This document shows, piece after piece, positions 34,438 through 48,323 of a stretch of DNA of 64,000 nucleotides (positions are counted from its first letter, which is position 1; every line of letters starts with the position of its first letter). A program made the translations under genes and the position numbers. Where the stretch lies: the NCBI GenBank assembly GCA_009772925.1, contig WOUQ01000004.1:166566-230565 (forward strand), in the 5' to 3' direction. Source of the DNA: a bacterium. GTDB lineage: Bacteria; Pseudomonadota; Gammaproteobacteria; Burkholderiales; Thiobacillaceae. The notes below the pieces were generated by a model. The model made no database searches, was not told the DNA's origin, and saw only the letters and a program-made list of their open reading frames with translations.

Positions 34438-34514
34438 CGGGGCGTAGCGCAGCCTGGTAGCGCACCTGCATGGGGTGCAGGGGGTCGGAAGTTCGAATCT
34501 TCTCGCCCCGACCA
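34438..34514 (+). tRNA. tRNA-Pro (GGG), integration site
   Basis: A 77-nt cloverleaf with encoded CCA. Acceptor CGGGGCG pairs with CGCCCCG, anticodon loop ATGGGGT gives GGG, and the T-arm is GTTCGAATC. Its 3' 48 bp are repeated at 48276-48323, so it served as the attachment site of the 13.8-kb element and remains intact. Confidence 0.96.
34467..34514. repeat. attL direct repeat (within tRNA-Pro)
   Basis: 48 bp beginning TGCATGGGGTGCAGG and ending CTCGCCCCGACCA. It differs from the right copy only at positions 16-17 (GG here, TT at the right end). Confidence 0.92.
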
Positions 34515-34550
34515 AATAAATCAAAGACTTACCAGAAAGTCGGACCAAGA

Positions 34551-34577
34551 AAGCCAGCCTTCCCAGCTGGCTTTTTT
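34551..34577 (+). terminator. Terminator after tRNA-Pro
   Basis: AAGCCAGC, 7-nt loop, GCTGGCTT, then T-tract. It lies inside the element, so the element supplies the terminator for the host tRNA. Confidence 0.85.
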
Positions 34578-34582
34578 CATTT

Positions 34583-34604
34583 CTGTAGCCAACCTGTAGC
34601 CAAA
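34583..34604. repeat. Left integrase arm-type repeats
   Basis: Two tandem copies of CTGTAGCCAA with an 11-bp period, about 70 bp inside attL. The same pair with the same spacing and orientation is at 48128-48149 near attR. This is the expected layout of arm-binding sites of a lambda-type integrase. Confidence 0.8.
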
Positions 34605-34643
34605 GCCGATTCCCTAGGGGGGTGGTGGCACAGACGAAAAAAA

Positions 34644-34664
34644 ACAGCCCCGAAGCGGGGCTGT
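34644..34664 (-). terminator. Terminator for the element's leftward operon
   Basis: Read on the minus strand: ACAGCCCCG-CTT-CGGGGCTGT followed by a T-tract (the plus strand shows A at 34637-34644). A second hairpin TGCCCGGC-N5-GCCGGGCA (34668-34688) precedes it. Both lie downstream of the last element gene. Confidence 0.85.
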
Positions 34665-34745
34665 GAATGCCCGGCTATGCGCCGGGCAGGGAGGTCGGGG
34701 AAAGCTACCCCATAGGCAGCACCGAATAAATCGCTTGTAGGGCCC

Positions 34746-35558
34746 CTACGCAGCTTCGGCGTCGGTTTCCAGCTGGCTTGCCTTGCTGATGTTGCCGAAT
34801 TCGTCCCTGATGATGCTGGTCTCCGTCCGGCGCGGCGGCAGGCTCACGGTGACGGCAGCCGGGGGGGTGTTGATCGTGGCCTCAAGCGTGACGGGGGTGG
34901 GCTCGACCACGATCTTGTTCTCGACCACGATCTGCTGCGGCGCCGGGGGCGCGGCCTCCTCGCGCTTCGGGGGGTGGTCCAGGAAATAGCGCAGCGCCGC
35001 CTCCAGGCGGGCCTGGAGCAGGCGCAGGGCCGGCAGGACGCGGTCGGTGAGTCCCGCCCTGGTCGCCTTGGACTGGGTCTGCCAGTCGTTGATGAGGGTG
35101 ATCTGCTTGTCGAAGGACTGGAGCACCTTCTCGGTTCCGTAGCTTGGCTTCCGCGCCATGGAGCTTTCAGTATTGCCCCGCTGCCGGCGCAGATTCAGCA
35201 GCCGCTCGGCCTGCTCGTTTCCCATGCGATCGATGTTGGCCAGGTCCTTCTCCACGGCGGCGATCTCCTTGCGAATCCAGCCCATCAGCTGGGCCTGGAC
35301 GGGGTAGCCGTCGCGCACGATGCTGGCCTGATATTGCACGGTGCCGAGCCAGCCGAGTTCGATCAGGCGCACCTGAATGCCGTCATCGGCGGCCTTGACC
35401 AAGGCGTCCCGGTAGGCGGCCTGGTCGAAGGCGACGGGGGGGAATACGGCGGGGCCGGCAGGTTGAACAGCAGCGGCTTTGGCGGGCTTGCTGGCGCGGG
35501 TCTTTTCAGGGGCGGGCCTCGCGGCGCGGGGCTGTACGGGTCTCGATTGCATGGGCAT
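34746..35558 (-). CDS. Element protein of unknown function (270 aa)
   Basis: No family recognised. Start ATG at 35558 with AAAGGA upstream; the longer track ORF adds an arginine/proline-rich shadow. N-terminal Pro/Ala-rich basic region (1-40), a helical middle (about 80-200), then a Pro-rich, beta-like tail ending RRTETSIIRDEFGNISKASQ, a pattern reminiscent of the C-termini of some phage structural or portal-associated proteins. It is the last gene of the element, before a strong terminator. A virion role is possible but unproven. Confidence 0.6.
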   Translation of the reverse strand: MPMQSRPVQPRAARPAPEKTRASKPAKAAAVQPAGPAVFPPVAFDQAAYRDALVKAADDGIQVRLIELGWLGTVQYQASIVRDGYPVQAQLMGWIRKEIAAVEKDLANIDRMGNEQAERLLNLRRQRGNTESSMARKPSYGTEKVLQSFDKQITLINDWQTQSKATRAGLTDRVLPALRLLQARLEAALRYFLDHPPKREEAAPPAPQQIVVENKIVVEPTPVTLEATINTPPAAVTVSLPPRRTETSIIRDEFGNISKASQLETDAEAA

Positions 35559-35569
35559 GGCACGTCCTT

Positions 35570-36097
35570 TCAGGAAGTGAGGGCCCCGCCGCAGTGCGGG
35601 CAGCGGGGGCCGGGGGTGGTTTCGGTGGGGTCGTGGTCGACCAGGTCCTCCAGGCGCACGATGTGCCCGGTGCGGATGTCGGCGACGCCGTTGCTGGCGA
35701 TCACCATGTGGCGCAACACCATGCAGCCCACCGCGGCCAGCTGGCTGTCCAGGGTATCCGCGGCCTCGCGGTCCTCCGGGCTGGGGGTGGGGTCGCCGTT
35801 CGGGTGGCAGTGCGCGAAGACCGCATGGCAGGCGCCATGCAGGGCTGCACGGCGGGCCGGCAGGTACTTGTCGTACACCAGGCCGTGAAGGCCGCCCACA
35901 GACAGTTCCTCGACTTCGATCAGCCGACAGTCGCGGTCCAGGAAGTAGCCCAGCAGCCGCTCCACCTCGGAATCGTGCAGCTGCAGCATGGCTGCGGCGA
36001 TCACGCGGCCGGTATCGGTGTAGTCCGGCATCCCATCGCGCCGCAGCTGGCGGATGGCGGCCTGCAGGCCGGCCTGGATGGTGGCGGCCTCGTTCAT
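35570..36097 (-). CDS. JAMM/RadC-like metalloprotease-fold protein
   Basis: A 175-residue protein. It contains a full JAMM motif H-x-H-x7-S-x2-D in HCHPNGDPTPSPED, followed by LAAVGCMVLRHMVIASNG, as in RadC/DUF2466 proteins. A small C-terminal CPHCGGAL suggests half a zinc ribbon. The start is ATG at 36097, overlapping the upstream stop (ATGA). RadC-like genes are common on mobile elements, and phage tail assembly proteins can also have JAMM domains; which applies here is unclear. Confidence 0.85.
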   Translation of the reverse strand: MNEAATIQAGLQAAIRQLRRDGMPDYTDTGRVIAAAMLQLHDSEVERLLGYFLDRDCRLIEVEELSVGGLHGLVYDKYLPARRAALHGACHAVFAHCHPNGDPTPSPEDREAADTLDSQLAAVGCMVLRHMVIASNGVADIRTGHIVRLEDLVDHDPTETTPGPRCPHCGGALTS

Positions 36098-36747
36098 TCG
36101 GCCGTCCAACCGCCGGATTCCTGGCGATGGATGCCGGCACCGGCCATCAGGCTGGTGACGCGCTCGCGCAGCTGCACCGGGTCCAGGGCGGACAGGCGCA
36201 GTCGGGTGAGCCCGTCCAAGGCCCGCTCCAGGGCGGTGGCCTCGGCGGTCAGGTCGCGCAATTCGGCCTGCGCCTTGGCGACCTCCTCCCGGGGCGGCGG
36301 CGACGCCCACCAGTTCCCGGGCTGCGCCCCCATCTCGGCCAGGCGCAGGCGGGCCTCGGCGATGTCCGGCGCGAGCCCGCGCAGGCCGCTGTCGACCAGG
36401 CCGATGGCGGTTTCCAGATCGGTCTCGCCCAGGTCCGGGTCGGTGACCAGACGGGTGAGCAGGTTGGACTCGCGGCCACGGGCCTGGGCGATCTGACCCT
36501 GGGCTTGCCACAGGGCGGCGTTGGCGGCCTCCAGGGCCTGCTGGCAGGTCTTGACCTTGGCCTCCAGGGCGGGGACGGTCTTCTCGGCCTTGGCGGCGTC
36601 GGCGATGGCCGAGTGGGCGCCGGAGATCAGTTCCTGGCGCAGCCTGGCCTTGGCGGCCTGTTCCTGCGCGGCTTGCTCGGCCACCATGGACTGGAATCCA
36701 GGTAGTTTCTCAACGAACTTGGCGATGTCGGCTTGGGTGATCTGCAT
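36094..36747 (-). CDS. Coiled-coil element protein (217 aa)
   Basis: No family recognised. Residues about 15-105 form a long helical, Ala/Glu/Lys/Gln-rich segment with heptad character (PALEAKVKTCQQALEAANAAL), and a second coiled coil covers about 155-185. No signal or membrane segment. It lies directly after terL and is coupled to the JAMM gene. Its position after the terminase, where a portal or scaffold would be expected in a phage, is notable, but nothing in the sequence shows such a function. Confidence 0.65.
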   Translation of the reverse strand: MQITQADIAKFVEKLPGFQSMVAEQAAQEQAAKARLRQELISGAHSAIADAAKAEKTVPALEAKVKTCQQALEAANAALWQAQGQIAQARGRESNLLTRLVTDPDLGETDLETAIGLVDSGLRGLAPDIAEARLRLAEMGAQPGNWWASPPPREEVAKAQAELRDLTAEATALERALDGLTRLRLSALDPVQLRERVTSLMAGAGIHRQESGGWTAE

Positions 36748-36759
36748 GATTCTTTCCTT

Positions 36760-38871
36760 TCAGTAGGGATTGCGCGTGATCCGTATCCGCCGCAAGGGAG
36801 GACGCGGGGGAACTACGGCCACCGGAGTGGGCGCAGGGGATGCGGGGGTGGATTCCGTTTCCGTGGCTTCTTCCGCGTCGCCGGTCGCAGGGAATAGTCC
36901 CTGCTGGCGGATGCGGGATTCCACGAGGTCCCACCAATGCGTTTTCTTGGCGTGCAGCCCGAGGGCATGCACCAGCCACACGGCGTACACACAGCAGTCC
37001 AGTGCCTCGTTGGCGCGATCGGTGCGCTTCTTCCATTGCCGCCGGCGGGGGTTGATGCGCATGGGGATCTTCAACTCGGAAAGCAACTGCTCGTAGAAGT
37101 CTGGCCGCACGGTCTGGTACCAGTGCATGCGCAGCGGGCCGTTGCCGGTGAGGCGCACGCGGCCGCCTTCCTGCGCCCAGCCCAGGATGCTGTCCTTGGC
37201 GCGGGCAGTGCCGACAATCTGCACCTGCACGCCGTGCTTGTCGGACTTCCGGCCGCTGCGGTGGGGGTCCAGGGTGGCGCTGGCGGGCGGGCGCCATATC
37301 TCCACCTTGCCTTCGGAGTCGCTGGCCCCCTTCACCGCATACACGGGGCGGCCTGGGCGGTTGCGCTTGCGCACGAAGTCGTACACGGCGCCGCTGGTCT
37401 GGCCGTCCGAGGAATCGATGGCCACGGCGGCGATCTTCAGTTGTGCGCCACTGGCGTGCTCGACGGCCTGTTCCAGCATCTGGTCCAGGTCCAGCCAGGC
37501 GCCGGCGAAGGCCACCACCGTGGGGCCATAGAGTTCACCCCAGAAAGCCAGCCACATTTCCTCGCGCCGGCCCGCCACCCAGCAGGTGACGGCCAGGCGG
37601 TCGTGTTGCACGTCGACGGTGAGCAGGGGTATCAGGCCGCCCTCGGGGGCCGTCCACTGCGCATAGGGCTCGGCGCGGGCCTCCAGTTCCGACTCCTCGG
37701 GCAGTTCGCCGCGATACTCCCAGGGCAGGCCCAGGGTGGAGTTCCAGAAGGCGATCATCTCCGAGTTGTCGCCCTCGTCTTGCTTGTGCTTGGCCTCCAG
37801 GTACTTGCGCGCCAGCACGGGCACGCGGCTGCCGGGGAACGTGGACAGCAGCTCGTTCAGCAGGAAGCCGACGGCGCCGGTAGCCGGGGCGGTGGCCTCG
37901 AAGTGGCCCTGGTGGATGGCCGCGTGGCGCTCCTCCTCGGTCCATGGGGCCTTGCAGGCGGGGCAGGTGTAGTAGGCCTGTTCCCAGCGGGCCTCGCCGT
38001 AGATTTCCCGGGCGGGCTGGCTGGCGTCCTCGGGGATCACCACGTTGTCCCAGGCGGGAACGTGTTCCTGGCCGCAGTGCGGGCAGGGCACCAGGTACTT
38101 GCGCTGATCGGAGGCGAGGATCTCTGCTTCGATGCTGCTGGCGCCCTTGGCGGTGGGCGTGCCGCCAATCAGCACCAGGTGATCCGGGTAGGCCTTGGCC
38201 CGCTCCTCGGCCAGCTTGATGGAGTCGCCCTGGGCGCCGGCCACGTTGCTGCTGGCATCGTCCGGTTCTTCGATAGCGACGATGCGGGCGGAGGTGGACT
38301 TCACGTCGCTGGGGCTGTTGCTGCCCACCAGCTTGATCAAGCCACCGGGGTAGTGCTTCCGGGTGGCGGAGTTACCGGCCGCGCGGCTCTTCAGGCTGAT
38401 GCGCTCGGCCAGGGGCGCGGTGGCCCGCACCATGGGGTCGAACTTCTCCGCGGCGTAGTCCTTCGCGGACTTCTCGCGCGGGAAGACCACCACCTGCACG
38501 CTGGGCCGATGGTGTACGTGGTAGCCCATGACGTTGCACAGCACGCCGACGGTGTAGCCGATCTGCGCGGATTTCATGACCACCACCTTACGGATGTCCG
38601 GGTCGGAGCAGGCCTGGAGGATGGGGCGCAGTGCCGGGGTGTAGGCCATGGAATAGCGGCCCGGGGTGGCGGACTCCTCCGGACTCAGCACGCGGTATTT
38701 CTCGGCCCAGGCATCGATGCTCATCTTGGGAGGCGGCGCCAGCTCGGCCCATACCCGCGCCAGCAGGGCGTCCAGGGATGCGGCGGTCCGGGACCTGCCC
38801 TCCAGGGCGTCCAGGGCGTCAGCGGCCCAGGTGGCGCCGGGGGGCAGGGCCAGGCCCATGGGGGTGTTCAC
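36760..38871 (-). CDS. terL: Phage terminase large subunit, GpA family
   Basis: A 703-residue DNA-packaging motor of the lambda GpA type. N-terminal ATPase with VVVMKSAQIGYTVGVLCNV (the degenerate Walker A of GpA) and ARIVAIEEPDD (Walker B). A CPHCGQ...CPACK zinc-binding pair lies in the middle. The nuclease half includes LLTVDVQHDRLAV, VAIDSSDGQTSGAVYDFVR and TDRANEALDCCVYA. Length is normal and the gene appears intact. Its start overlaps the terS stop (ATGA). Confidence 0.94.
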   Translation of the reverse strand: MNTPMGLALPPGATWAADALDALEGRSRTAASLDALLARVWAELAPPPKMSIDAWAEKYRVLSPEESATPGRYSMAYTPALRPILQACSDPDIRKVVVMKSAQIGYTVGVLCNVMGYHVHHRPSVQVVVFPREKSAKDYAAEKFDPMVRATAPLAERISLKSRAAGNSATRKHYPGGLIKLVGSNSPSDVKSTSARIVAIEEPDDASSNVAGAQGDSIKLAEERAKAYPDHLVLIGGTPTAKGASSIEAEILASDQRKYLVPCPHCGQEHVPAWDNVVIPEDASQPAREIYGEARWEQAYYTCPACKAPWTEEERHAAIHQGHFEATAPATGAVGFLLNELLSTFPGSRVPVLARKYLEAKHKQDEGDNSEMIAFWNSTLGLPWEYRGELPEESELEARAEPYAQWTAPEGGLIPLLTVDVQHDRLAVTCWVAGRREEMWLAFWGELYGPTVVAFAGAWLDLDQMLEQAVEHASGAQLKIAAVAIDSSDGQTSGAVYDFVRKRNRPGRPVYAVKGASDSEGKVEIWRPPASATLDPHRSGRKSDKHGVQVQIVGTARAKDSILGWAQEGGRVRLTGNGPLRMHWYQTVRPDFYEQLLSELKIPMRINPRRRQWKKRTDRANEALDCCVYAVWLVHALGLHAKKTHWWDLVESRIRQQGLFPATGDAEEATETESTPASPAPTPVAVVPPRPPLRRIRITRNPY

Positions 38872-39335
38872 TCGACGGCCTCAGGCTGTTGGGACTGCTG
38901 CCAGTCGGCGAGCTTGCCCAGCACCTCGTCGAAGAGATCGCGCAGCTGGGTTTCCCGCTCGGCCCGGTCCTTGCCTTCCATGGCAACGGCGATGCGCGCA
39001 GGTTCGCTGCGGATGCGCTCCCGGGCGGCCACCACCGCGGCCTTCATCGCCGGCTCGATGGCGGCGGCGGGCACCAGCTGGGCGCGCTTCTCGGCGAGGC
39101 GCAGTTCCATGTCATCGGCTTGCAGGCGGTGGAGGCGGTCCTTCGGGGATTCGGCCTGCACCTTGCGCACCTCGCGGTCGACCAGCCAGCGAATGCAGGC
39201 GGCGGCGTCGTACTCGTTGGGCACCCCACGGCCGCCCTGGACAGCCACGGGGAAGCCGGCTTCCTGCCATTCGACGATGGTCTTGGGGGCCACTCCCATC
39301 ATTTCGGCGATCTTGTCCTGGCCAATCACACGCAT
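38868..39335 (-). CDS. terS: Phage terminase small subunit, Nu1-like
   Basis: A 155-residue protein. The N-terminal winged-helix reads IGQDKIAEMMGVAPKTIVEWQEAGFPV, followed by helical DNA- and TerL-contact regions, as in lambda Nu1. It is coupled to the large subunit. The pair would define the packaging specificity of the element. Start ATG at 39335. Confidence 0.85.
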   Translation of the reverse strand: MRVIGQDKIAEMMGVAPKTIVEWQEAGFPVAVQGGRGVPNEYDAAACIRWLVDREVRKVQAESPKDRLHRLQADDMELRLAEKRAQLVPAAAIEPAMKAAVVAARERIRSEPARIAVAMEGKDRAERETQLRDLFDEVLGKLADWQQSQQPEAVE

Positions 39336-39428
39336 GGATTACTCACATCTAAGTCATTGATATAACTAGGGAATGATCGCGGTCGGGATGGCCCGTGTGT
39401 CGCAACCCCTGGGAAGGACCCTGAGTTT

Positions 39429-40139
39429 TCATCGGGCGGTCCTCACTGCCTGGCGATAGGCCGCGCGGAAGTGGCCCGCGAACTCCTTGGCCATCACGCC
39501 CCGGGCCATCTCGGGTAGGTCGATCACCTTGCGGTATCCGGCGCCCTTGACGAATACCATCATGGCCTTGAGGGCGCGGCCCTTGCGCCAGTACACGCCG
39601 GGCGGGAGATGGGAGCGGGTACCCGGGCGGATGGCGAAATAGCCGGTCAGGGCCATGCGCTTGCCGCGTCCCTTGTACTGCTGCATGCCCGATTTCAGTG
39701 AGCCGAGCATTTCCGCCACCGCGGTGCGCCTGGGGTTGCCGTAGCCATCCAGGGGCATGCCACTGCCGGGGACGGCACGCCAGCCACTGGGCAGGGCGCC
39801 CAGGGCGGCCAGGGCCACCTCCATGGGCTTGTTGCCGCGCACGCCACCGGCGAAGTGTTCCTTGAGCAGCACGGCCGGAGCAGTGCCGCGGCCGGGCTTG
39901 CGATCCCGTATCCCGACCACGGCCTGCAGCTTGTCCCGACGGGCCGCGGTCGAGAAGGTGGAGTTGCGCGAGTAGGGCGTCGAAGACGGCAGTTCCGCGG
40001 CCACCTTGGCCTTGAGGCGCATTTCCAGGCGGCGCGCGGTCTTCGTGAGCGCCACGCCTGCGGCGAAGCGCGCCTGCTTCTGGGCAGAGATCAGGAAGCG
40101 CTGGGTGCGGCCGATGCCCTCAATCCGGATGCGGATCAC
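39429..40139 (-). CDS. Phage tail-completion / gp10-like morphogenesis protein
   Basis: A 236-residue basic protein. The start MIRIRIEGIGRTQRFL, the KTARRLEMRLKAKVA helix and a C-terminal domain with GVYWRKGRALKAMMVF resemble head-tail joining or tail-completion proteins (HK97 gp10-like or minor tail type). The assignment is by overall pattern and position, directly after the tape measure gene and overlapping it by 4 bp. The exact family is uncertain. Confidence 0.6.
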   Translation of the reverse strand: MIRIRIEGIGRTQRFLISAQKQARFAAGVALTKTARRLEMRLKAKVAAELPSSTPYSRNSTFSTAARRDKLQAVVGIRDRKPGRGTAPAVLLKEHFAGGVRGNKPMEVALAALGALPSGWRAVPGSGMPLDGYGNPRRTAVAEMLGSLKSGMQQYKGRGKRMALTGYFAIRPGTRSHLPPGVYWRKGRALKAMMVFVKGAGYRKVIDLPEMARGVMAKEFAGHFRAAYRQAVRTAR

Positions 40140-41866
40140 CGCGCACCCCGTTTCAAGCTGGCCTGACGGATGTAATCATCAATGGCGCCCGCCGATGCAC
40201 CGTTGCCCCAGCTTGCCTGCACAGGCACCACCAGCGGATTACTGGCCAGTTCATCGCGGACCTGCTTGATGACGTTCCGCATCTCGTTGGCCATGGCTTC
40301 CGCCGCTAGCGGCACTGCCACCGGGTCCATGGCGGCAATCTCCAGCTTGGCCTGGTCCAGGGTGCGAGCCAGGGAGTTGGCGGTGGCCTCGGCTGTTTTT
40401 TCCTCGGCGCTGACGATAGCCAGCTCGAAATCGCGCAGACTGCGCGACCAGTAGCTGCCCTCCGGGCCAATCACGCCGGATTCGTTCAGGGCGAGCAGCA
40501 TCTCCTTGGCACGATCCGCCGCGAGACCGGCCGCCGCCGCGTTGCCGCTGTTCAATGCCGCCCGACCAGCCATCAGTTCTCCGGACAGATCGAGCACCCC
40601 GGAGGCTTCTCCGGGCTTGCCACGGCTAAGGTCCGCCTCCAGGGCGTCGTATTCCGCCGCCAGTGCGCGGCGCTTGGATGTGAACGCGCGCTGATAGTCA
40701 TCCATTGGCGAGAGGTCAAACGCCTTGCGCAACGAATCTTGCAGCTTTCCGGCCTGTTCATCGGTCAAGATGCCGCTCAAGCCTTCGGCGGTTGCGCGGG
40801 ATAGCTGGCGTATGGCCGTTTCCTGAGAACGGATCATGTCCAACGTGGTAGCGTCCCCGCCGTACTTGTTGCCGCCGATGCTGGTGAAGGCGGCGGGGCC
40901 CTGGATCGGTGCCATGATTTGCTTGATCAGCGCATCGTGCTCCTCACGCCGGCGAAGGGCCGACTCCTTGCCCATTTTTTCGATGGCGAGGGCGGACCTG
41001 AAGTTGCCGGTATAGAACGCCTCATATTTGGCGGCGACATTTCCCATGCTGTCGCCCACCTGATCGAAAACATACGCGACGTTTGCCCAGGACACCCCGA
41101 TGGTCTGGCCAACAGGACCGAGCCGCCCCAAATCGGCCAACATCTGGTCGACGCCTTCTGTGATGCCGGTATTCAGCAAATCGGCCAGGCCGTTGAGGGC
41201 AGGCAGCAGGGCGTTGCCGACAACCACGCTCAGGCCTTCGCCGGCTATTTTCAGATCACCCAGGCTATCGTTGAACCGGGCGGCGGCGTTCGCCATCTCG
41301 GCGGTTACCGGGTAGAGCTTTTGGCCTTGCTCGATCAGGCGTTCCAGGCCGTCGCCGCCTTCGTTGAGGGCGGGGATCAGGTCGGCGCCGGACTTGCCGA
41401 GCAGGCGCATGGCCAGGGCGGTTTTTTCGGCGCCGTCTGGCATGGCGGCGAACACGTCGGCGAGCTGCACCAGGGCGCCGTTGACGTCGCGGCTGGTGAC
41501 GCCGATGCGGGCCAGCAGCGGGTCTCCCTCGGCGATGTTCTTGGCCAGGAAGCGCGCGCCCTTCGCCAGTTCCTCGGTGGAGACGCCGGCGCGGTCTGCC
41601 ACCAGCTTGTAGCCCGCCAGGGTTTCGACGGATACGCCCAAGCGCTGCGACATGTCGGAGAGCGCGTCAGCGGCGTCGATGCCGGATTTGGCGAAGGCCA
41701 GCAGGCCGCCGCCGGCGAGGGCCCCTACGCCAAGCCCGGAGAGTAGATCGGATACTTTGCTGCCGGCGATGTTCAATCGATCCAGACTGCGTCGCGCGGA
41801 TTCGAATGCGGCGCGGGTGCGGTCATCCGCGTCCAGAATGACCTTCGTGTTTTCGACTGATGCCAT
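40136..41866 (-). CDS. Phage tail tape measure protein
   Basis: A 576-residue protein. The N-terminal VILDADDRTRAAFESARRSLDRL helix, a glycine-rich hydrophobic patch (SDLLSGLGVGALAGGGLLAF), and the segment DALSDMSQRLGVSVETLAGYKLVADRAGVSTEELAKG are typical of tape measure proteins. The rest is mainly helical. The start is ATG at 41866 with AGAGGAG upstream. It is short for the family; at about 0.15 nm per residue it would set a tail under 90 nm. No tube, chaperone or baseplate genes accompany it. Confidence 0.85.
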   Translation of the reverse strand: MASVENTKVILDADDRTRAAFESARRSLDRLNIAGSKVSDLLSGLGVGALAGGGLLAFAKSGIDAADALSDMSQRLGVSVETLAGYKLVADRAGVSTEELAKGARFLAKNIAEGDPLLARIGVTSRDVNGALVQLADVFAAMPDGAEKTALAMRLLGKSGADLIPALNEGGDGLERLIEQGQKLYPVTAEMANAAARFNDSLGDLKIAGEGLSVVVGNALLPALNGLADLLNTGITEGVDQMLADLGRLGPVGQTIGVSWANVAYVFDQVGDSMGNVAAKYEAFYTGNFRSALAIEKMGKESALRRREEHDALIKQIMAPIQGPAAFTSIGGNKYGGDATTLDMIRSQETAIRQLSRATAEGLSGILTDEQAGKLQDSLRKAFDLSPMDDYQRAFTSKRRALAAEYDALEADLSRGKPGEASGVLDLSGELMAGRAALNSGNAAAAGLAADRAKEMLLALNESGVIGPEGSYWSRSLRDFELAIVSAEEKTAEATANSLARTLDQAKLEIAAMDPVAVPLAAEAMANEMRNVIKQVRDELASNPLVVPVQASWGNGASAGAIDDYIRQASLKRGAR

Positions 41867-41883
41867 GGTGTTTCTCCTCTTTC

Positions 41884-42117
41884 TCAGGCATGGCCCGCGA
41901 CGGGGCAATGAGGCAGGCGCAGGCGCGCCGCCAGGTGTTCGTATTCGACGGCGAGGCGCTCGGCCACGGTGGGCTCGCGGACCTCAACGGCTAGGTTTCT
42001 GGAAAGGACCAAGAGCAGGGACACGGCCTCTTCAGGAGTCAGTTCGAGCAGCGCGATGAGGACGCCGTTGACGGCCCGGTCCAGATCAGCGTCGGTAGCG
42101 GGGAAGAATTGGCGCAT
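41884..42117 (-). CDS. Small element protein (77 aa)
   Basis: A 77-residue acidic, helical protein of unknown function (LDRAVNGVLIALLELTPEEAVSLLLVL). The ATG at 42117 has AAGGA upstream, and the gene is 17 bp from the tape measure start. The longer track ORF reads through the repeat cluster and is not used. In phages a small protein before the tape measure is often a tail assembly chaperone, but no such signature is seen. Confidence 0.6.
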   Translation of the reverse strand: MRQFFPATDADLDRAVNGVLIALLELTPEEAVSLLLVLSRNLAVEVREPTVAERLAVEYEHLAARLRLPHCPVAGHA

Positions 42118-42134
42118 TTGGGGATCCTTCAACA

Positions 42135-42373
42135 GGTTGGGAAGGTTGGGAGCAGGTTGGGAAGGCTGGAACCCGCGCCAACACTGGGTCTTCCTAACCT
42201 TCCCAACCTTCCTAACGTGTAAATGACACACACACACGGGCGTGCGCGTGCGCGGGTGCGCGGGTGCGCATACGTGCGTGCGGGAAAATAGGTTGGGAAG
42301 GTTAGGAAGGTTGGGAAGCCCCTTATTCCACGCGGCCCGCAGGGTTCCCAACCTGCTCCCAACCTTCCTAACC
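42135..42373. repeat. Iteron-like inverted-repeat cluster, candidate origin
   Basis: Many copies of GGTTGGGAAGG / GGTTAGGAAGG in both orientations. The outer pair, 42135-42163 and 42345-42373, is a 29-bp inverted repeat with one mismatch. An inner pair is at 42191-42216 and 42291-42318. Between them, 42226-42283 is alternating purine-pyrimidine (CACACACA, GTGCGCGTGCG). The cluster fills the gap between the primase/helicase gene and the morphogenesis genes, a place that suits a replication origin. Confidence 0.75.
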
Positions 42374-42382
42374 TCGTGGTTG

Positions 42383-44554
42383 TCACACGCGCGCATGTTC
42401 TTCCCCCATGGGTAGCTGCGCAGGCCTGGTTGCCCTTGCGGCCTCGGGTGGTGTGTACCAGTAGCGGGTGGCCCCCTTGCGCTTCTCGATGCGCCCGCAG
42501 CCCAGCTTGCGCAGGGCCATGCCGATGCGGGTCTGCATGTCGCGGGTGAGCTTGCCGGCGTCCAGTTCCAGCCCGTCCATGGCCGCCATGGCGATGCTGA
42601 AGGGCTTGGGCTTGTTGCTGGTGTCGAACCTTGCGAATACCCAATCGTGCAATGCGTCCACCAGGGACTCGGACTGCTCGCGCTTCAGCTGTTCCGGATC
42701 GAACAGGCGGCGCTGCTCCTCGGCATTCGGGAAGAACCGCTCGCCCGCGTCGTAGGCCACCAGAGCTTCCGCGAAGAGCTGATCGCGGACGGCGCGCAGG
42801 GCGTCGAGGTCGATCTCCCCCACTTCCACCGGCCAGAAGCGCCGGCCGCCGGTGGGGTCCTTATTCCATTCCCACTCGTTCGTGCTGCCGGCGAACACGG
42901 TCTGGCGCGGCACGCGGATGTAGCGACGGCCGTAGGGCGGCCGGTATTCGTCCTGCTGGCGCGAGAGGAAGCTCTTCTGCTTCATGGCCTCCGCCCGGGC
43001 CAGCGAGCCCAGTTCCGCGAACTCGTAGAGCCATTTGCCCTGCAAAGCGGACATGGAATCCTTGTTGCCCAAATCCAGATCGGTGTCGCCGAACCACTCC
43101 CCACCCAGGATCGCCAGGGCGGTGGACTTCCCCCTGCCCTGGGGGCCTTCCAACACGAGGCAGTAGTCGAACTTGACGCCGGGGCGCATGACGCGGACCA
43201 CCATGCCCATCAGGTACCACCGCGCCACGCGCATGCTGTATTCGGTTTTGGCCACGCCCAGGAAGTCCGCCAGCCAGTGTTCCAGGCGTGGCGTACCGTC
43301 CCATCGCAGTGTGCGCAGCCAATCGCGTACGGGGTGGAAGGCACGCGCGCGGGCCAGCACCTCGACGGCTTCCGCCACCAGGCCGGTCGAAGGCGTGAAG
43401 CGATAGAGCCTGGAAAGCCACATGGCGGTGCGGCTGTCATCCGTTGTATCCCACTCACCGACCACGCCAGCCGGATACGGCGGCGGTCTCAGCTTCACGG
43501 TGCGCTGATCGAACTCATTGAGCGCCACCACGCCGGCCCAGGCGGGATCGTTGGCGAGGATGTCGAAGACGTTTGCGAGACAGGCCTGAAGCTCGCCACG
43601 GGTGTAGAGCAGCTTCTTTTTCCAGTCGGGCGCATCATCATCCAGTTGGGGGGCACGCTTGCCACCCCGCTGGCGTGGCGGCTTGGGCGGCTGCCAGCCG
43701 GCATCCATGGCCAGCTTGAACAAGGTGGCGCCGGTGATACCGCCGCCCGGATCGAAACTTTTCCAGTGCTGGGCCACCACCTGGTGACCAGGGTATTTGG
43801 CGGACTTCGCCGACCAGGCGTCCCACACGTCCATGGCGCCGCTGCCCAGTTCCGCGCATATGGCCATGCCGATGTGTATCCAGTCGTCGAAGCCGCACTC
43901 CGGCGACACGAAGGCCAGGGCGGATTCCAACTTGGCGCGGCCCTCCAAGGCTGGCGCGGGCGCCGTGGCCGGCTTCCCGTCGGCGCGCTTCTTGGAAGAC
44001 TTCACGGTGGCGCGCAGGCGGGCCAGCACCTGATCGGAAATCGGCTTCACCTCGCCCGGCGTGCCCGGGTAGGGACGGCCTGTCACCGTGAAGTACTGGC
44101 GCCCGCAGAAAACCTCGACGCCAATCTCGTTGCTTTTGAAGGTGTCCGTGGCGCCGGCGACGATGATGTGAACACCCTTGCCGCTCGGGCTGAACTCCGT
44201 GTAGCTCCCGCAGGCCTGGATGATGTTCCGTCCCCGCTCGCTGATCTCGCCGGAGCCGGTGTCGATCATGGCGTCCAGGTCGATGCCGATGAGGCCGTCA
44301 CCGGGCAGGAAGGCGAAGCCCAGTCCGTCCCATTTGCCCTTCGCCAGATCAGCCAGGGCGGGTTCAAATTCCGCCAGGGCGGCGCGGTCCGCATCCGAAC
44401 CTTGCACGCCCACCCGCCGCTTGCCGCTGACGTAATGGGGCACCTTGCGCGGCTTCTTGTCTCCGGCCTTGGCTTCGAAGCGCCAAAGCAGCCATTGCTT
44501 CCGCTGGCGGAGTTCCACAGGGATGACAGATGGATCGATGCCATTGGCCGTCAT
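42383..44554 (-). CDS. PrimPol / VirE-type replication protein
   Basis: A 723-residue protein. The N-terminal bifunctional primase-polymerase has GLGFAFLPGDGLIGIDLDAMID and, later, GSYTEFSPSGKGVHIIV. A PriCT-like segment follows (WIHIGMAICAELG...DVWDAWSAKSAKYP). The C-terminal half is a VirE/VapE superfamily-3-like helicase with Walker A EGPQGRGKSTAL. This fusion is typical of satellites, islands and some prophages and would drive autonomous replication. Start ATG at 44554 (the GTG at 44563 is an alternative). Confidence 0.9.
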   Translation of the reverse strand: MTANGIDPSVIPVELRQRKQWLLWRFEAKAGDKKPRKVPHYVSGKRRVGVQGSDADRAALAEFEPALADLAKGKWDGLGFAFLPGDGLIGIDLDAMIDTGSGEISERGRNIIQACGSYTEFSPSGKGVHIIVAGATDTFKSNEIGVEVFCGRQYFTVTGRPYPGTPGEVKPISDQVLARLRATVKSSKKRADGKPATAPAPALEGRAKLESALAFVSPECGFDDWIHIGMAICAELGSGAMDVWDAWSAKSAKYPGHQVVAQHWKSFDPGGGITGATLFKLAMDAGWQPPKPPRQRGGKRAPQLDDDAPDWKKKLLYTRGELQACLANVFDILANDPAWAGVVALNEFDQRTVKLRPPPYPAGVVGEWDTTDDSRTAMWLSRLYRFTPSTGLVAEAVEVLARARAFHPVRDWLRTLRWDGTPRLEHWLADFLGVAKTEYSMRVARWYLMGMVVRVMRPGVKFDYCLVLEGPQGRGKSTALAILGGEWFGDTDLDLGNKDSMSALQGKWLYEFAELGSLARAEAMKQKSFLSRQQDEYRPPYGRRYIRVPRQTVFAGSTNEWEWNKDPTGGRRFWPVEVGEIDLDALRAVRDQLFAEALVAYDAGERFFPNAEEQRRLFDPEQLKREQSESLVDALHDWVFARFDTSNKPKPFSIAMAAMDGLELDAGKLTRDMQTRIGMALRKLGCGRIEKRKGATRYWYTPPEAARATRPAQLPMGEEHARV

Positions 44555-44630
44555 ACCAGCCACCCGCCACTGAGGCCCACCAGGACCATGCCCGTTTCAG
44601 GGCACTGGACATTGCGGCACCAGCTTTCCT

Positions 44631-44843
44631 TCACCGGAAAAGGACGCCCTGGAAGTACACACGCCGGGCGTTTCGCTGTGCATAGGCCGCCAGGACCAGG
44701 CCGGCCAGTGCGGGGGTGTCCCTGCGAGTCAGTTGCAGGCGACGTTGGCTGCATGCATGGGACTCGCGGCGCAGCTGGGCCAGCAGCCGGCGGCGGCGGC
44801 GCTCGATGCGCCAGGCGGGCCTGGGTTTCTTGCTGGTCGGCAT
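44631..44843 (-). CDS. Small basic element protein (70 aa)
   Basis: A 70-residue Arg-rich protein (RIERRRRRLLAQLRRESHAC). The ATG overlaps the AlpA gene stop (TGATG). It could be a nucleic-acid binder; the function is unknown. Confidence 0.55.
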   Translation of the reverse strand: MPTSKKPRPAWRIERRRRRLLAQLRRESHACSQRRLQLTRRDTPALAGLVLAAYAQRNARRVYFQGVLFR

Positions 44844-45118
44844 CAGCCGCCCCGGTGCGGGAAACGGTGTGCGGTGCCGACGGGGGGCAGGGTCCTGCCA
44901 GCCTGAATTTTCCTGATCACCCAGCCATGCACCTCGCTCTGCACCCAGCGCAGGTTATTGCCGGCGCCGAGCGAGACAGGGCGTGGGAAGGTGGGATCGT
45001 AGTATTTCGAGTCTGGGTTCAACCTCTCCCAGAGTGCAGTGCGGCCCAAGCCCGTCATCCGCTCGACATCCTGCCGGCGGATCAAGGCCTCTTTGAGGTT
45101 TTCCAGCAGTTCGCCCAT
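44843..45118 (-). CDS. AlpA-family regulator / putative excisionase
   Basis: A 91-residue MerR/AlpA-like winged-helix protein: LIRRQDVERMTGLGRTALWERLN then FPRPVSLGAGNNLRWVQSEVHGWV. AlpA proteins activate excision or the island operon in phages and satellites. The start is ATG at 45118 with GAGGAA upstream. It is the only recognisable regulator in the element. Confidence 0.85.
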   Translation of the reverse strand: MGELLENLKEALIRRQDVERMTGLGRTALWERLNPDSKYYDPTFPRPVSLGAGNNLRWVQSEVHGWVIRKIQAGRTLPPVGTAHRFPHRGG

Positions 45119-45273
45119 TTCCGTTTCCTCGCACAACCTTCGATTCCGGTTTGAATCGAACACGCGCTCAGCATAGGGAGGCGGCGCAGATGCAGCGAGT
45201 AACGGCGCATGGGGGCTTAATTCGTCCCTTTAGTTACTTTACTTTGTTGCGCGGTTGTGGGCTGGGTGGGTCT

Positions 45274-45348
45274 GGAAGGCCGGTTTCTGGAAATTATCAC
45301 CACTGGTGATAATTACCGAAACCTCACCGAACGGCGCTTCCTGCGGCC
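45274..45348. repeat. 75-bp repeat unit A with palindromic core
   Basis: Flanks GGAAGGCCGGTTT and CTTCCTGCGGCC match unit B. The core is a perfect inverted repeat, AATTATCACC-ACT-GGTGATAATT (45292-45314). It lies upstream of the AlpA gene, so it may be an operator. Confidence 0.8.
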
Positions 45349-45359
45349 TGTGACGGGCT

Positions 45360-45434
45360 GGAAGGGCGCTTTTTGGAAAATGTGTCATCTGGCACAAATC
45401 TCGAAAAACTTACTGAAGGTCGCTTCCTGCGGCC
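45360..45434. repeat. 75-bp repeat unit B with palindromic core
   Basis: Exactly the same length as unit A, 86 bp downstream. Flanks are conserved, but the core differs and still forms an imperfect palindrome, TGTGTC-ATCT-GGCACA (45381-45396). Its end overlaps the 3' end of the 281-residue gene. Confidence 0.78.
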
Positions 45435-46255
45435 CTGGTGGGGCAGCTTGAGTCCTCTATTTTTTTTGCGCGGTTGCGCGCTTGCAGGACGGCCAGGCGT
45501 GAAACGGGGCGGCCCAACAGTGCGGAGAGCAGCTGGGCCAGGTGGTTGTCCGAGACCGCAAAATCGGCGGGCAGCGACCAGTGCGTGAGGTCCGCCAGGC
45601 GCGCATCGAAAAAGCGCACCAGCGCGGTGACATCGCCCGCGCCGGCCACCCCGCCGGCGCCCAGCGTCGCGTACCCGTAGTACCGCGGCGGGGTGATCTC
45701 CGTGCGCTCCATGGCATCCGCAAGGCCGCGCAGTAGCGGGGCCAGCGCGGGGAAGTCTCGCCAGCCAGGACACTCGATTTTGCAGCCTGTTGCTTCCGCC
45801 CAGGTGGTGAGCAGTTCGTACTCGCCGGCGCTCCAGCCAATCCCCTTGGATTCGCGCAGGGCCACCGCGGCGTCCCATTCGTCGGCCAGTTCGGTGGCCA
45901 GCGCGGCGATCTTTTCCATACGTCGGCCGACCTCCTCAAGGGCCGGTTTCATTTCCGCGTCCAATGCCGCCGGGGTGAGGCATAGCACGTCCAGAAACGC
46001 TTTGTAGGGCACGAGCCGGTCTTCCGGATCGGCGCGCCGGCCCCGGGCCTCGACGGCGTCGACCAACAGCCGCCAGAATGGGGCAAGCGCGGTGGGGAAC
46101 CGATTGCCCTCGGCGGGCGTGGTCCCGTAGAGCAGCCGCTCCAGGTTCCTGATCCATTCCTTGGCGATGGCGGGATCCCATGCACGGGACAAATCGACGG
46201 CCGCCTCCCAGACTTGCGCGGGGACGTGCTCTGGACGTTCGATGTTAATTGTCAT
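45410..46255 (-). CDS. Element protein of unknown function (281 aa)
   Basis: No family recognised. Start ATG at 46255 (MTINIERPEHVPAQVWEAAV) with AAAGG upstream; the track start is 63 bp earlier. Largely helical and acidic, with no signal or membrane segment. Its 3' end runs into the 75-bp repeat B, so the last residues (SSCPTRAAGSDLQ) are encoded by the repeat. It lies in the early region between integrase and AlpA, where control functions are usual. Confidence 0.65.
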   Translation of the reverse strand: MTINIERPEHVPAQVWEAAVDLSRAWDPAIAKEWIRNLERLLYGTTPAEGNRFPTALAPFWRLLVDAVEARGRRADPEDRLVPYKAFLDVLCLTPAALDAEMKPALEEVGRRMEKIAALATELADEWDAAVALRESKGIGWSAGEYELLTTWAEATGCKIECPGWRDFPALAPLLRGLADAMERTEITPPRYYGYATLGAGGVAGAGDVTALVRFFDARLADLTHWSLPADFAVSDNHLAQLLSALLGRPVSRLAVLQARNRAKKIEDSSCPTRAAGSDLQ

Positions 46256-46287
46256 GTCACGGCCTTTCGGTGCAACTTCGTTGGGGA

Positions 46288-46309
46288 CCACCCCCAGGCT
46301 AGGGGGTGG
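46288..46309. repeat. Hairpin between two element genes
   Basis: CCACCCCC-AGGCTA-GGGGGTGG, an 8-bp stem without a T-tract, between the 81-residue and 281-residue genes. Possibly an RNA processing or partial terminator site. Confidence 0.6.
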
Positions 46310-46319
46310 TGAACTCACG

Positions 46320-46565
46320 TTATGCTGGTTGTGCTGCCACCGGGCTCTGGCTCAGATCGAATTCGTCCAGGCGCTCGGCCAGCTGGCGCAGATCGGCCTC
46401 GATGCGTTGCACCAGGAAGATCCCGGATTGAATTTCCTCGGTGGGAAATCCTTCATTTGACGCCAGCAAGGCATTTGCGCCTTGAGCCATCGCGGCGATC
46501 CTGTAGATACGGTTGATTGCCTCGCCGATGTCTGCGATGTGGGTGGTACAGTCTTTCGTAGCCAT
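46320..46565 (-). CDS. Small element protein (81 aa)
   Basis: An 81-residue acidic helical protein (HIADIGEAINRIYRIAAMAQGA; LVQRIEADLRQLAERLDEFD). Unknown function. ATG at 46565 with AAGGAG upstream. It follows the integrase by 82 bp. Confidence 0.6.
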   Translation of the reverse strand: MATKDCTTHIADIGEAINRIYRIAAMAQGANALLASNEGFPTEEIQSGIFLVQRIEADLRQLAERLDEFDLSQSPVAAQPA

Positions 46566-46647
46566 AGTTCAACTCCTTGCAGTTGGGTCTTGGTCAGGGG
46601 CGGCGTGAGGTTCGGTCTCTCGCTGCCCCGCTATTTGCCTGAAACCG

Positions 46648-48078
46648 TCAGGCGGCGGTCTTGCGAAAACGTCCCGCCAACACGTTGTCCGCGACCAGCC
46701 CGACCAGGTACTTGCCCCAGCTGGCGGCGGCGGCCTTGCGCTCCTTCTCGTAGGTTGCACGGTTGTAGATCGCGGCCAGTTCGTTGCTGGCGGCGTGGTT
46801 CAGGATGCGCTCGATGACGTGCGGCTGGATGCCGACATCCTCGGCCATGCGGGTAGCCACGCTGCGGCGCAGATCGTGGGCGTTGAAGTGGGGCATGTCC
46901 CAGAACGCCTTCACGCCATCGGCCTCCCGCTTATCGGTCCGGAAGCCTTGCCCGGGCATGGGGCGCAGGTGGCGGCCGATGGACTGTTCGACGCTGGCCT
47001 GGCTGATGGGGAACTCCTTCTTGCCGGGTTCGGCGCGGTCCGACAAGAAGACGAAACGGCCCGCGCCGGAGAGGTGGCGCAGCCGCTCCAGGAGCTCCAA
47101 GGCTTGCTTGGGCAGGTAGACGACATGGGTCTGGGGGGCGCTCTTGCGCCGCTCCTCTTTCTTCTGCTTGACGGCCGGGATGCGCCACTCGTCGCCGACG
47201 ATCTCGGACCACTCCATCTCACACACGTAGCCGGTACGCTGGCCCGAGTAGAGGGCCAGGGCGATGACGCCCTTGACTTGCCAGCTGGCCCGCATCTCGG
47301 GCAGGGTGCGCAGGACGATCCGCAGTTCCTCCCGGGTCAGGGCGCGGGCGCGGGTCTGTTCACGCTTGCGGATGGCCCGCTTCTCGATCTTGGCAAAAGG
47401 GCTGATCTCCAGATGGTCCCGGGTCACGGCGTAGCTGAACATGCGCTCCAGGTAGCGCAGCTGGTCATTGGCCAAAGCGTTGGCGCCGCGTTTCTGGGTG
47501 GCCTCCACGATCTCCACCACATGGGCGCGGGTGACGGCCTTCGCCGGGATGTCACGGAACAGGGTAGGGGTGGCGCCGTCTGGCTTGAAGGCGTAGTCCA
47601 GGACGCTGCCCATGACGTCGCGGCGAACCCAATCGGGCTTCTTGAACTCGGGCACGATGCGGTTTTCAAACCACTGTTCGAACAGTCCGCCCACCGTCAC
47701 CTCCAGGCGGGTGCGGCGCTCGGCCTCCTCTTGTCTGGCCCGCTCGGCCTCCTCCCGGCGCTTGGTCTCCGCTTTGCGCTCCATTGGGTCGATCTTGTCG
47801 ATCAGGAGCCGGGTAGCGTCCGCGTTGAGGACGCTCGCCTGGGCGAGGCTGACGCCGGACAAGCCATCGGGATCGAAGTCGGCGAGGTAGTGAGTGACGC
47901 GCTTCCCGGTGGTGGGCGAGACATAGCGGCGGTAGAACTTGACCTTGCCGCTGGCCATGGCCCGGGCCACCAGGCCGTCGCCCTTGGACAGCCATTCCTC
48001 ATTTCCGGATTGCCTGGCCCGGCGTTGGGCGGCTAGTATCGACATTTCCGTGAGTTGTTTGGCTACAGTCCTGCCCAT
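46648..48078 (-). CDS. int: Tyrosine-family integrase
   Basis: A 476-residue site-specific recombinase. Order: N-terminal DUF4102-like arm-binding domain (KVKFYRRYVSPTTGKRVTHYLADFD), a core-binding domain (about 125-230), then the catalytic domain with Arg in YSGQRTGYVCEM, HDLRRSVATRM (HxxR), H in ILNHAAS and the nucleophile Tyr in LAAIYNRATY. This type inserts at tRNA 3' ends. Start ATG at 48078 with AGGAG upstream. It lies next to attR and reads into the element. Confidence 0.95.
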   Translation of the reverse strand: MGRTVAKQLTEMSILAAQRRARQSGNEEWLSKGDGLVARAMASGKVKFYRRYVSPTTGKRVTHYLADFDPDGLSGVSLAQASVLNADATRLLIDKIDPMERKAETKRREEAERARQEEAERRTRLEVTVGGLFEQWFENRIVPEFKKPDWVRRDVMGSVLDYAFKPDGATPTLFRDIPAKAVTRAHVVEIVEATQKRGANALANDQLRYLERMFSYAVTRDHLEISPFAKIEKRAIRKREQTRARALTREELRIVLRTLPEMRASWQVKGVIALALYSGQRTGYVCEMEWSEIVGDEWRIPAVKQKKEERRKSAPQTHVVYLPKQALELLERLRHLSGAGRFVFLSDRAEPGKKEFPISQASVEQSIGRHLRPMPGQGFRTDKREADGVKAFWDMPHFNAHDLRRSVATRMAEDVGIQPHVIERILNHAASNELAAIYNRATYEKERKAAAASWGKYLVGLVADNVLAGRFRKTAA

Positions 48079-48127
48079 GGAACCTTCTCCTTTTTGCAAT
48101 TGGCAACAGCGCAGTCTTGCCGGACGT

Positions 48128-48149
48128 CTGTAGCCAAACTGTAGCCAAA
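48128..48149. repeat. Right integrase arm-type repeats
   Basis: Two tandem copies of CTGTAGCCAA at 11-bp period, matching the pair at 34583-34604 in the same orientation. They lie between int and attR. Confidence 0.8.
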
Positions 48150-48177
48150 AAAGCCCGGTTTGTTAAGAATTATTTTG

Positions 48178-48263
48178 GTTCGATTCGAACAATAGGAATG
48201 ACGAATATGACGCAACGTACTGAAAACAAACAACTCTCAGGGTTCGTTCCGGACTGATCCGGA
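48178..48263. promoter_or_regulatory. Palindromes between int and attR
   Basis: GTTCGATTCGAAC (48178-48190, perfect 6-bp arms) and TCCGGACTGATCCGGA (48248-48263). They may be excisionase, AlpA or promoter-proximal operator sites for int. No firm -35/-10 pair was chosen. Confidence 0.4.
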
Positions 48264-48275
48264 CCCCGTGCTTTT

Positions 48276-48323
48276 TGCATGGGGTGCAGGTTGTCGGAAG
48301 TTCGAATCTTCTCGCCCCGACCA
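48276..48323. repeat. attR direct repeat
   Basis: 48 bp duplicating the 3' part of tRNA-Pro (anticodon loop to CCA) with two adjacent mismatches. It lies 25 bp before surE. Confidence 0.92.

Follow-up and report, generated by a model that had tools for sequence, protein, structure and literature searches.

A tape measure gene paired with a putative tail-completion gene in a probable phage satellite of a Thiobacillaceae bacterium

A tape measure gene in an integrated element

The 64,000-nucleotide stretch analysed here, hereafter the window (contig WOUQ01000004.1, positions 166,566 to 230,565, from a bacterium of the Thiobacillaceae), contains a 13.8-kb integrated element (34515-48276) filled by 13 open reading frames (ORFs), two of which encode a tape measure protein (TMP) and a gpZ/gp10-like tail-completion protein (TCP) (Table 1). 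Counted from the integrase, the order is integrase, two family-less ORFs, AlpA, VapE primase, a repeat region, a 77-aa ORF, TMP, TCP, the small and large terminase subunits (TerS and TerL), a coiled-coil protein, a RadC-like JAB protein, a further ORF without family and the attachment (att) site. A sister species has the empty site in one unbroken piece, matching the joined flanks at 97%, which indicates that the element is a discrete insertion. Family searches with PHROG and Pfam gave no match to any portal, capsid, tube, baseplate or chaperone family among the 13 ORFs, and protease and connector families were likewise unmatched. The original prediction, made from the letters of the window, of a tape measure gene with a gp10-like partner and nothing else of the tail was thus borne out, with the coordinates of the gene exact.

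Residues 23-307 of the TMP matched annotated PHROG tape-measure families (phrog_8462, phrog_8125, phrog_3981 and others), so the conserved N-terminal region is present; the best PHROG match, phrog_13338, carries no annotation. The gene starts with an ATG at 41866, preceded 7 nt upstream by a ribosome site (GAGGAG), and its stop overlaps the TCP gene by 4 nt (GTGA). Its GC content by codon position was 0.68/0.47/0.78, a periodicity that continued to the C-terminus. At 576 aa the protein is short when compared to its phage homologues (median 884 aa, n=76), only 5% of which have 576 aa or less, and it gave no match to PF09718, the lambda-type C-terminal domain of one TMP subfamily. Truncation had been named beforehand as one of the findings that would refute the original prediction: the C-terminal part is indeed shorter, but the gene is not broken, as the reading frame is intact and neither a frameshift nor a premature stop accounts for the difference.

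Along its entire length the TCP matched phrog_1924, 'minor tail protein', with a weak match to phrog_27, 'tail completion or Neck1', and its homologues in some Pseudomonas phages are annotated as minor tail protein Z or tail completion protein. Comparison of its family profile with that of the gpZ-like group scored 93.7%, over the first 79 columns only. The structural model (predicted local distance difference test, pLDDT, 89) has a beta domain flanked by two long helices, one at either terminus, an outline in agreement with tail-completion proteins as described for 80alpha/SaPI1 particles, in which the TCP is bound to three TMP N-termini and caps the end of the DNA (PMC11661146). No PDB structure matched the model; among predicted viral structures there were three strong but unnamed matches, and named tail components appeared at weak E-values only.

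Table 1 Features of the element in the window (positions are those of the window)
Feature	Position	Strand	Evidence
attL, 3' end of tRNA-Pro(ggg) (34438-34514)	34467-34514	+	48-nt direct repeat, 96% identical to 48276-48323
ORF of about 270 aa, no family match	34746-35561	-	family searches; GC3 0.87
RadC-like JAB/JAMM-domain protein	35570-36097	-	PF04002 E 8.4e-19; HxHx7SxxD motif read in sequence
Coiled-coil protein	36094-36747	-	20-31% identical counterparts adjoining RadC or major capsid protein in L085, L077, L076
TerL, lambda gpA type	36760-38871	-	PF05876 E 7.8e-74, PF20454 E 3.5e-77
TerS, Nu1 type	38868-39335	-	PF07471 E 1.8e-11, phrog_57 E 1.3e-22
TCP, gpZ / HK97 gp10-like	39429-40139	-	phrog_1924 E 1.3e-46
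TMP, 576 aa	40136-41866	-	phrog_8462 E 3.5e-28, phrog_13338 E 7.8e-44
77-aa ORF directly upstream of TMP	41884-42117	-	no confident family match
Direct and inverted repeats, GGTTGGGAAGGTTAGGA type	42131-42372	.	similar sequence beside VapE in related loci
VapE-type primase-helicase	42383-44563	-	PF05272 E 5.8e-72, PF08707 E 5.2e-18
AlpA-like regulator/excisionase	44843-45163	-	PF05930 E 1e-08
ORF without family match; start may be 46258	45410-46318	-	family searches
ORF, 81 aa, no function assigned	46320-46565	-	
Tyrosine integrase	46648-48099	-	PF00589 E 4e-15
attR	48276-48323	+	48-nt copy of tRNA-Pro 3' end

The GGTTGGGAAGG-type repeats lie downstream of VapE; like sequence adjoins VapE in many related phages, and they are a possible candidate for a replication origin or packaging site.

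Related elements and exchange of the tape measure gene

Five other elements of the integrase/primase/terminase type were found to carry a TMP (L305, L076, L077, L096 and L361), of which the first two are complete, with att repeats at both ends. L305 (10.7 kb, perfect 85-nt repeats) encodes an integrase, a TerS-like protein, a capsid protein and a 558-aa TMP belonging to the family of the window TMP. In L076 (14.4 kb, 61-nt repeats at tRNA-Asn) the order is primase-TerS-TerL-coil-major capsid protein (MCP)-TMP, and a portal was not found; L077 runs TerS-TerL-coil-RadC-TMP, reaching a tRNA-Ser gene. Relative to the TerL of the window, those of L076 and L077 stand at a level of about 45% identity, and their TMPs (962 aa in both) form a different family (phrog_1533/991). 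L096 is arranged as coil-TMP-VapE-TCP-TerS-TerL, and L361 as integrase-TMP-coil-primase-TerS-TerL, its 705-aa TMP containing PF09718 (E 5.5e-24). Two further loci run TCP-coil-RadC-TerS-TerL (L085) and TCP-TerS-TerL (L073). The closest relatives of the window TerL, those of L085, L096, L361 and L073, were 72-79% identical, and the arrangement of these loci, where visible, departs from that of complete siphophages.

Eighty TMP N-terminal regions were placed in one tree, including the four satellite TMPs of the window family. These fell in four places, corresponding to four label changes, at least three of which were forced by strongly supported branches; the placement of the window TMP itself, beside a long branch, was weakly supported (83/66). 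The TerL proteins of the window, L096 and L361 were 72-76% identical although their TMPs sit in separate phage clades, indicating that the TMP has been repeatedly replaced on a common backbone. Judged from these sequences, such swapping is as expected if the TMP must match the tail of a helper. The TMPs of L076 and L077, 85% identical, are under purifying selection (dN/dS 0.145 at dS 0.71; 0.124 for the TerL of the same two elements). For the window TMP, the only relative was 37% identical, too diverged for dN/dS.

We considered whether the element could be what is left of a prophage after loss of the head genes and most tail genes, with the TMP and TCP as functionless leftovers. The VapE-repeats-gp10-TerS-TerL order is common to complete phages, and the window TMP is devoid of the lambda-type domain seen in L361. 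The VapE-TerS-TerL backbone is likewise shared with complete siphophages, of which L074, L075 and L103 resemble the element in VapE (71% identity), TerL (55-57%) and gene order up to TerL; these, however, go on to a portal and a capsid-protease, whereas the element continues with coil-RadC-att. Moreover, all its genes are intact and coupled, the att repeats and the empty site are clean, a like gene set recurs in separate elements in which TMP positions and phage clades vary, and one TMP pair is under purifying selection. A degraded prophage was therefore not retained as the leading interpretation and is in our view unlikely, and the element is probably an integrated and functional phage satellite.

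Several side observations concern the related elements. L305 (1858-12666) also encodes a collagen-repeat protein, and it has no TerL. A capsid protein for which a portal was not found is encoded in L076 (13146-14159), which is complete, and in the partial contigs L292-L295; in these MCP-type elements TerS-TerL occurs and a coiled-coil protein, perhaps a scaffold, directly precedes the capsid gene, and L293 and L295 run from the MCP into a conserved downstream gene without a TMP. The capsid gene's place in L076 is occupied in others by the RadC-like protein with an intact JAMM motif (window 35570-36097; L085:1924-2472, 45% identical to the window protein; L077:7287-7757, 28%); a RadC search among viral contigs gave no matches. 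Two TMP-bearing elements share HEAGH/HEAAH proteins belonging to no family (L305:8782-9396 and L361:6086-6853), possible metallopeptidases, and Mor-like activators, which possibly control late genes, were found in L085 (5046-5333), L076 (18132-18404) and L294 (966-1232).

A putative chimeric tail and its alternatives

The element encodes its own terminase together with two proteins that lead from the packaged DNA into the tail, and a helper must supply the rest. We propose a putative chimeric tail, with satellite TMP and TCP inside and helper tube and tip outside, and hold this to be moderately probable. After excision, the satellite would replicate by VapE priming, and its TerS-TerL would cut its own DNA and package it into heads made by the helper; satellite TMP and TCP would then replace their helper counterparts inside the tail, the helper supplying tube, tip and lysis. 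The satellite would in this way depend on a matching helper, and the TMP-TCP pair would be the concrete point of contact at which the packaged DNA of the satellite meets the borrowed tail. The intact and tightly coupled genes, the ribosome site, the clean att repeats, the empty site, the recurrence of TMP-bearing elements, the purifying selection on one TMP pair, the repeated replacement of the TMP and the precedents of the cholera satellites (see below) and of 80alpha/SaPI1 all argue for this proposal.

Several findings weigh against it. The only prophage found by a portal search was L078 (genome G000, contig C72), in the same genome, and no helper was identified; the prophage TMP matched the window TMP in the N-terminal half and not at the C-terminus. 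The C-terminal half of the window TMP had no clear relative, the best being L305, with 4 of 500 shuffles scoring as high, and the structure model of the protein was poor (pLDDT 49) and was set aside. L096 and L361 end in or just after TerL, so that head and tail genes may follow there. Finally, no recognised chaperone was found in the element, whereas the satellites known as phage-inducible chromosomal island-like elements (PLEs) encode one. L078 itself, a prophage of siphovirus type that encodes a portal, a capsid and a TMP of 875 aa, was taken as a candidate helper, a role left unsupported by the differing C-termini.

The partial match with the resident prophage could also be read in another way, namely that the TMP is not a particle component but a decoy, keeping the helper from assembling its tails as a form of interference or defence. 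A dominant-negative protein is conceivable on this basis, and interference with tail assembly is known in satellites, since Rta of PLE11 targets the helper TMP (PMC12987554). The TMP gene nonetheless adjoins TCP and terminase genes, as that of a particle component would, and related satellites retain full-length TMPs, in L361 with the lambda-type C-terminus. We regard a decoy as quite improbable.

A further alternative is that the TMP changes the length of the helper tail and thereby remodels the helper. When phage TMPs were pooled (median 884 aa), the four satellite TMPs (558, 576, 654 and 705 aa) proved shorter (Mann-Whitney p 0.006), and in PLE11 the tail is 10 nm shorter than in ICP1 (PMC12987554). 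This length difference is confounded by ancestry and loses its force once the latter is considered: the nearest phage clades hold many TMPs of 568-709 aa, and that of L361 (705 aa) exceeds that of its neighbour phage L316 (683 aa). In addition, the TMPs of L076 and L077 are long, and a helper genome would not be excluded by tail length, unlike by capsid size. We consider redirection of tail length very unlikely.

These results divide the original prediction that the TMP redirects a helper tail. An own TMP within a helper tail is its best-supported part; redirection of tail length found no support, since satellite TMPs have roughly the length of TMPs from the phage clades in which they fall. 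The comparison of TMP ends with a helper, which it had suggested, yielded no helper with matching ends and, in the resident prophage, a match to the N-terminal half only. Its view of a new type of helper remodelling is anticipated by the PLEs.

Comparison with known satellites

To our knowledge, satellites were thought before 2026 only to remodel heads, borrowing tails whole. Gram-negative phage-inducible chromosomal islands (PICIs) are not known to have a TerL of their own and rely on that of the helper. The element resembles them in having an integrase, an AlpA-type regulator, a primase and a TerS at a single tRNA att site and in its size of about 14 kb, its 13.8 kb lying within the PICI range of about 8-18 kb; it differs from them by the presence of TerL (36760-38871), TMP and TCP. 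Capsid-forming PICIs (cf-PICIs) are like the element in having their own TerS and TerL, a similar size and, in some, a predicted tmp gene, and dependence on a helper tail would be common to both; they encode capsid, portal, protease and connectors (PMC10690885), none of which was found in the element.

The nearest precedent is provided by the PLEs of Vibrio cholerae, whose own TMP is built into chimeric tails, as established by electron microscopy, western blot, mass spectrometry and deletion (2026, PMC12987554). TMP types differ between PLE variants, and according to the same work no other satellite TMP has been reported, although its authors predict a tmp gene for some cf-PICIs (PMC12987554, Extended Data Fig. 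10). PLEs are unrelated satellites from a different host order, with ICP1 as helper and a different gene content; like them, the element has its own TMP. PLEs pair the TMP with a tail-assembly chaperone, some also with a baseplate hub, whereas the element pairs it with the TCP and carries TerS-TerL, with the 77-aa ORF at the chaperone position and no chaperone recognised. New with respect to the PLE precedent are therefore the other hosts, a TCP instead of a recognised chaperone, an own TerS-TerL, the absence of an own head and the evidence for repeated TMP exchange. Tentatively, and with less assurance than for the chimeric tail, we suggest a previously undescribed satellite family in the bacterial order of the host, in which the module for the tail interior, made up of the TMP and in some members also the TCP, is exchangeable and sits on a terminase-primase backbone, a new TMP would retarget the satellite to the tail of another helper, and heads would be borrowed (RadC-type) or built from an own portal-less capsid (MCP-type). 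The occurrence of TMPs on several separate satellites other than PLEs, replaced on one backbone, suggests that exchange of the tail interior is a general phenomenon and may determine the choice of helper open to a satellite.
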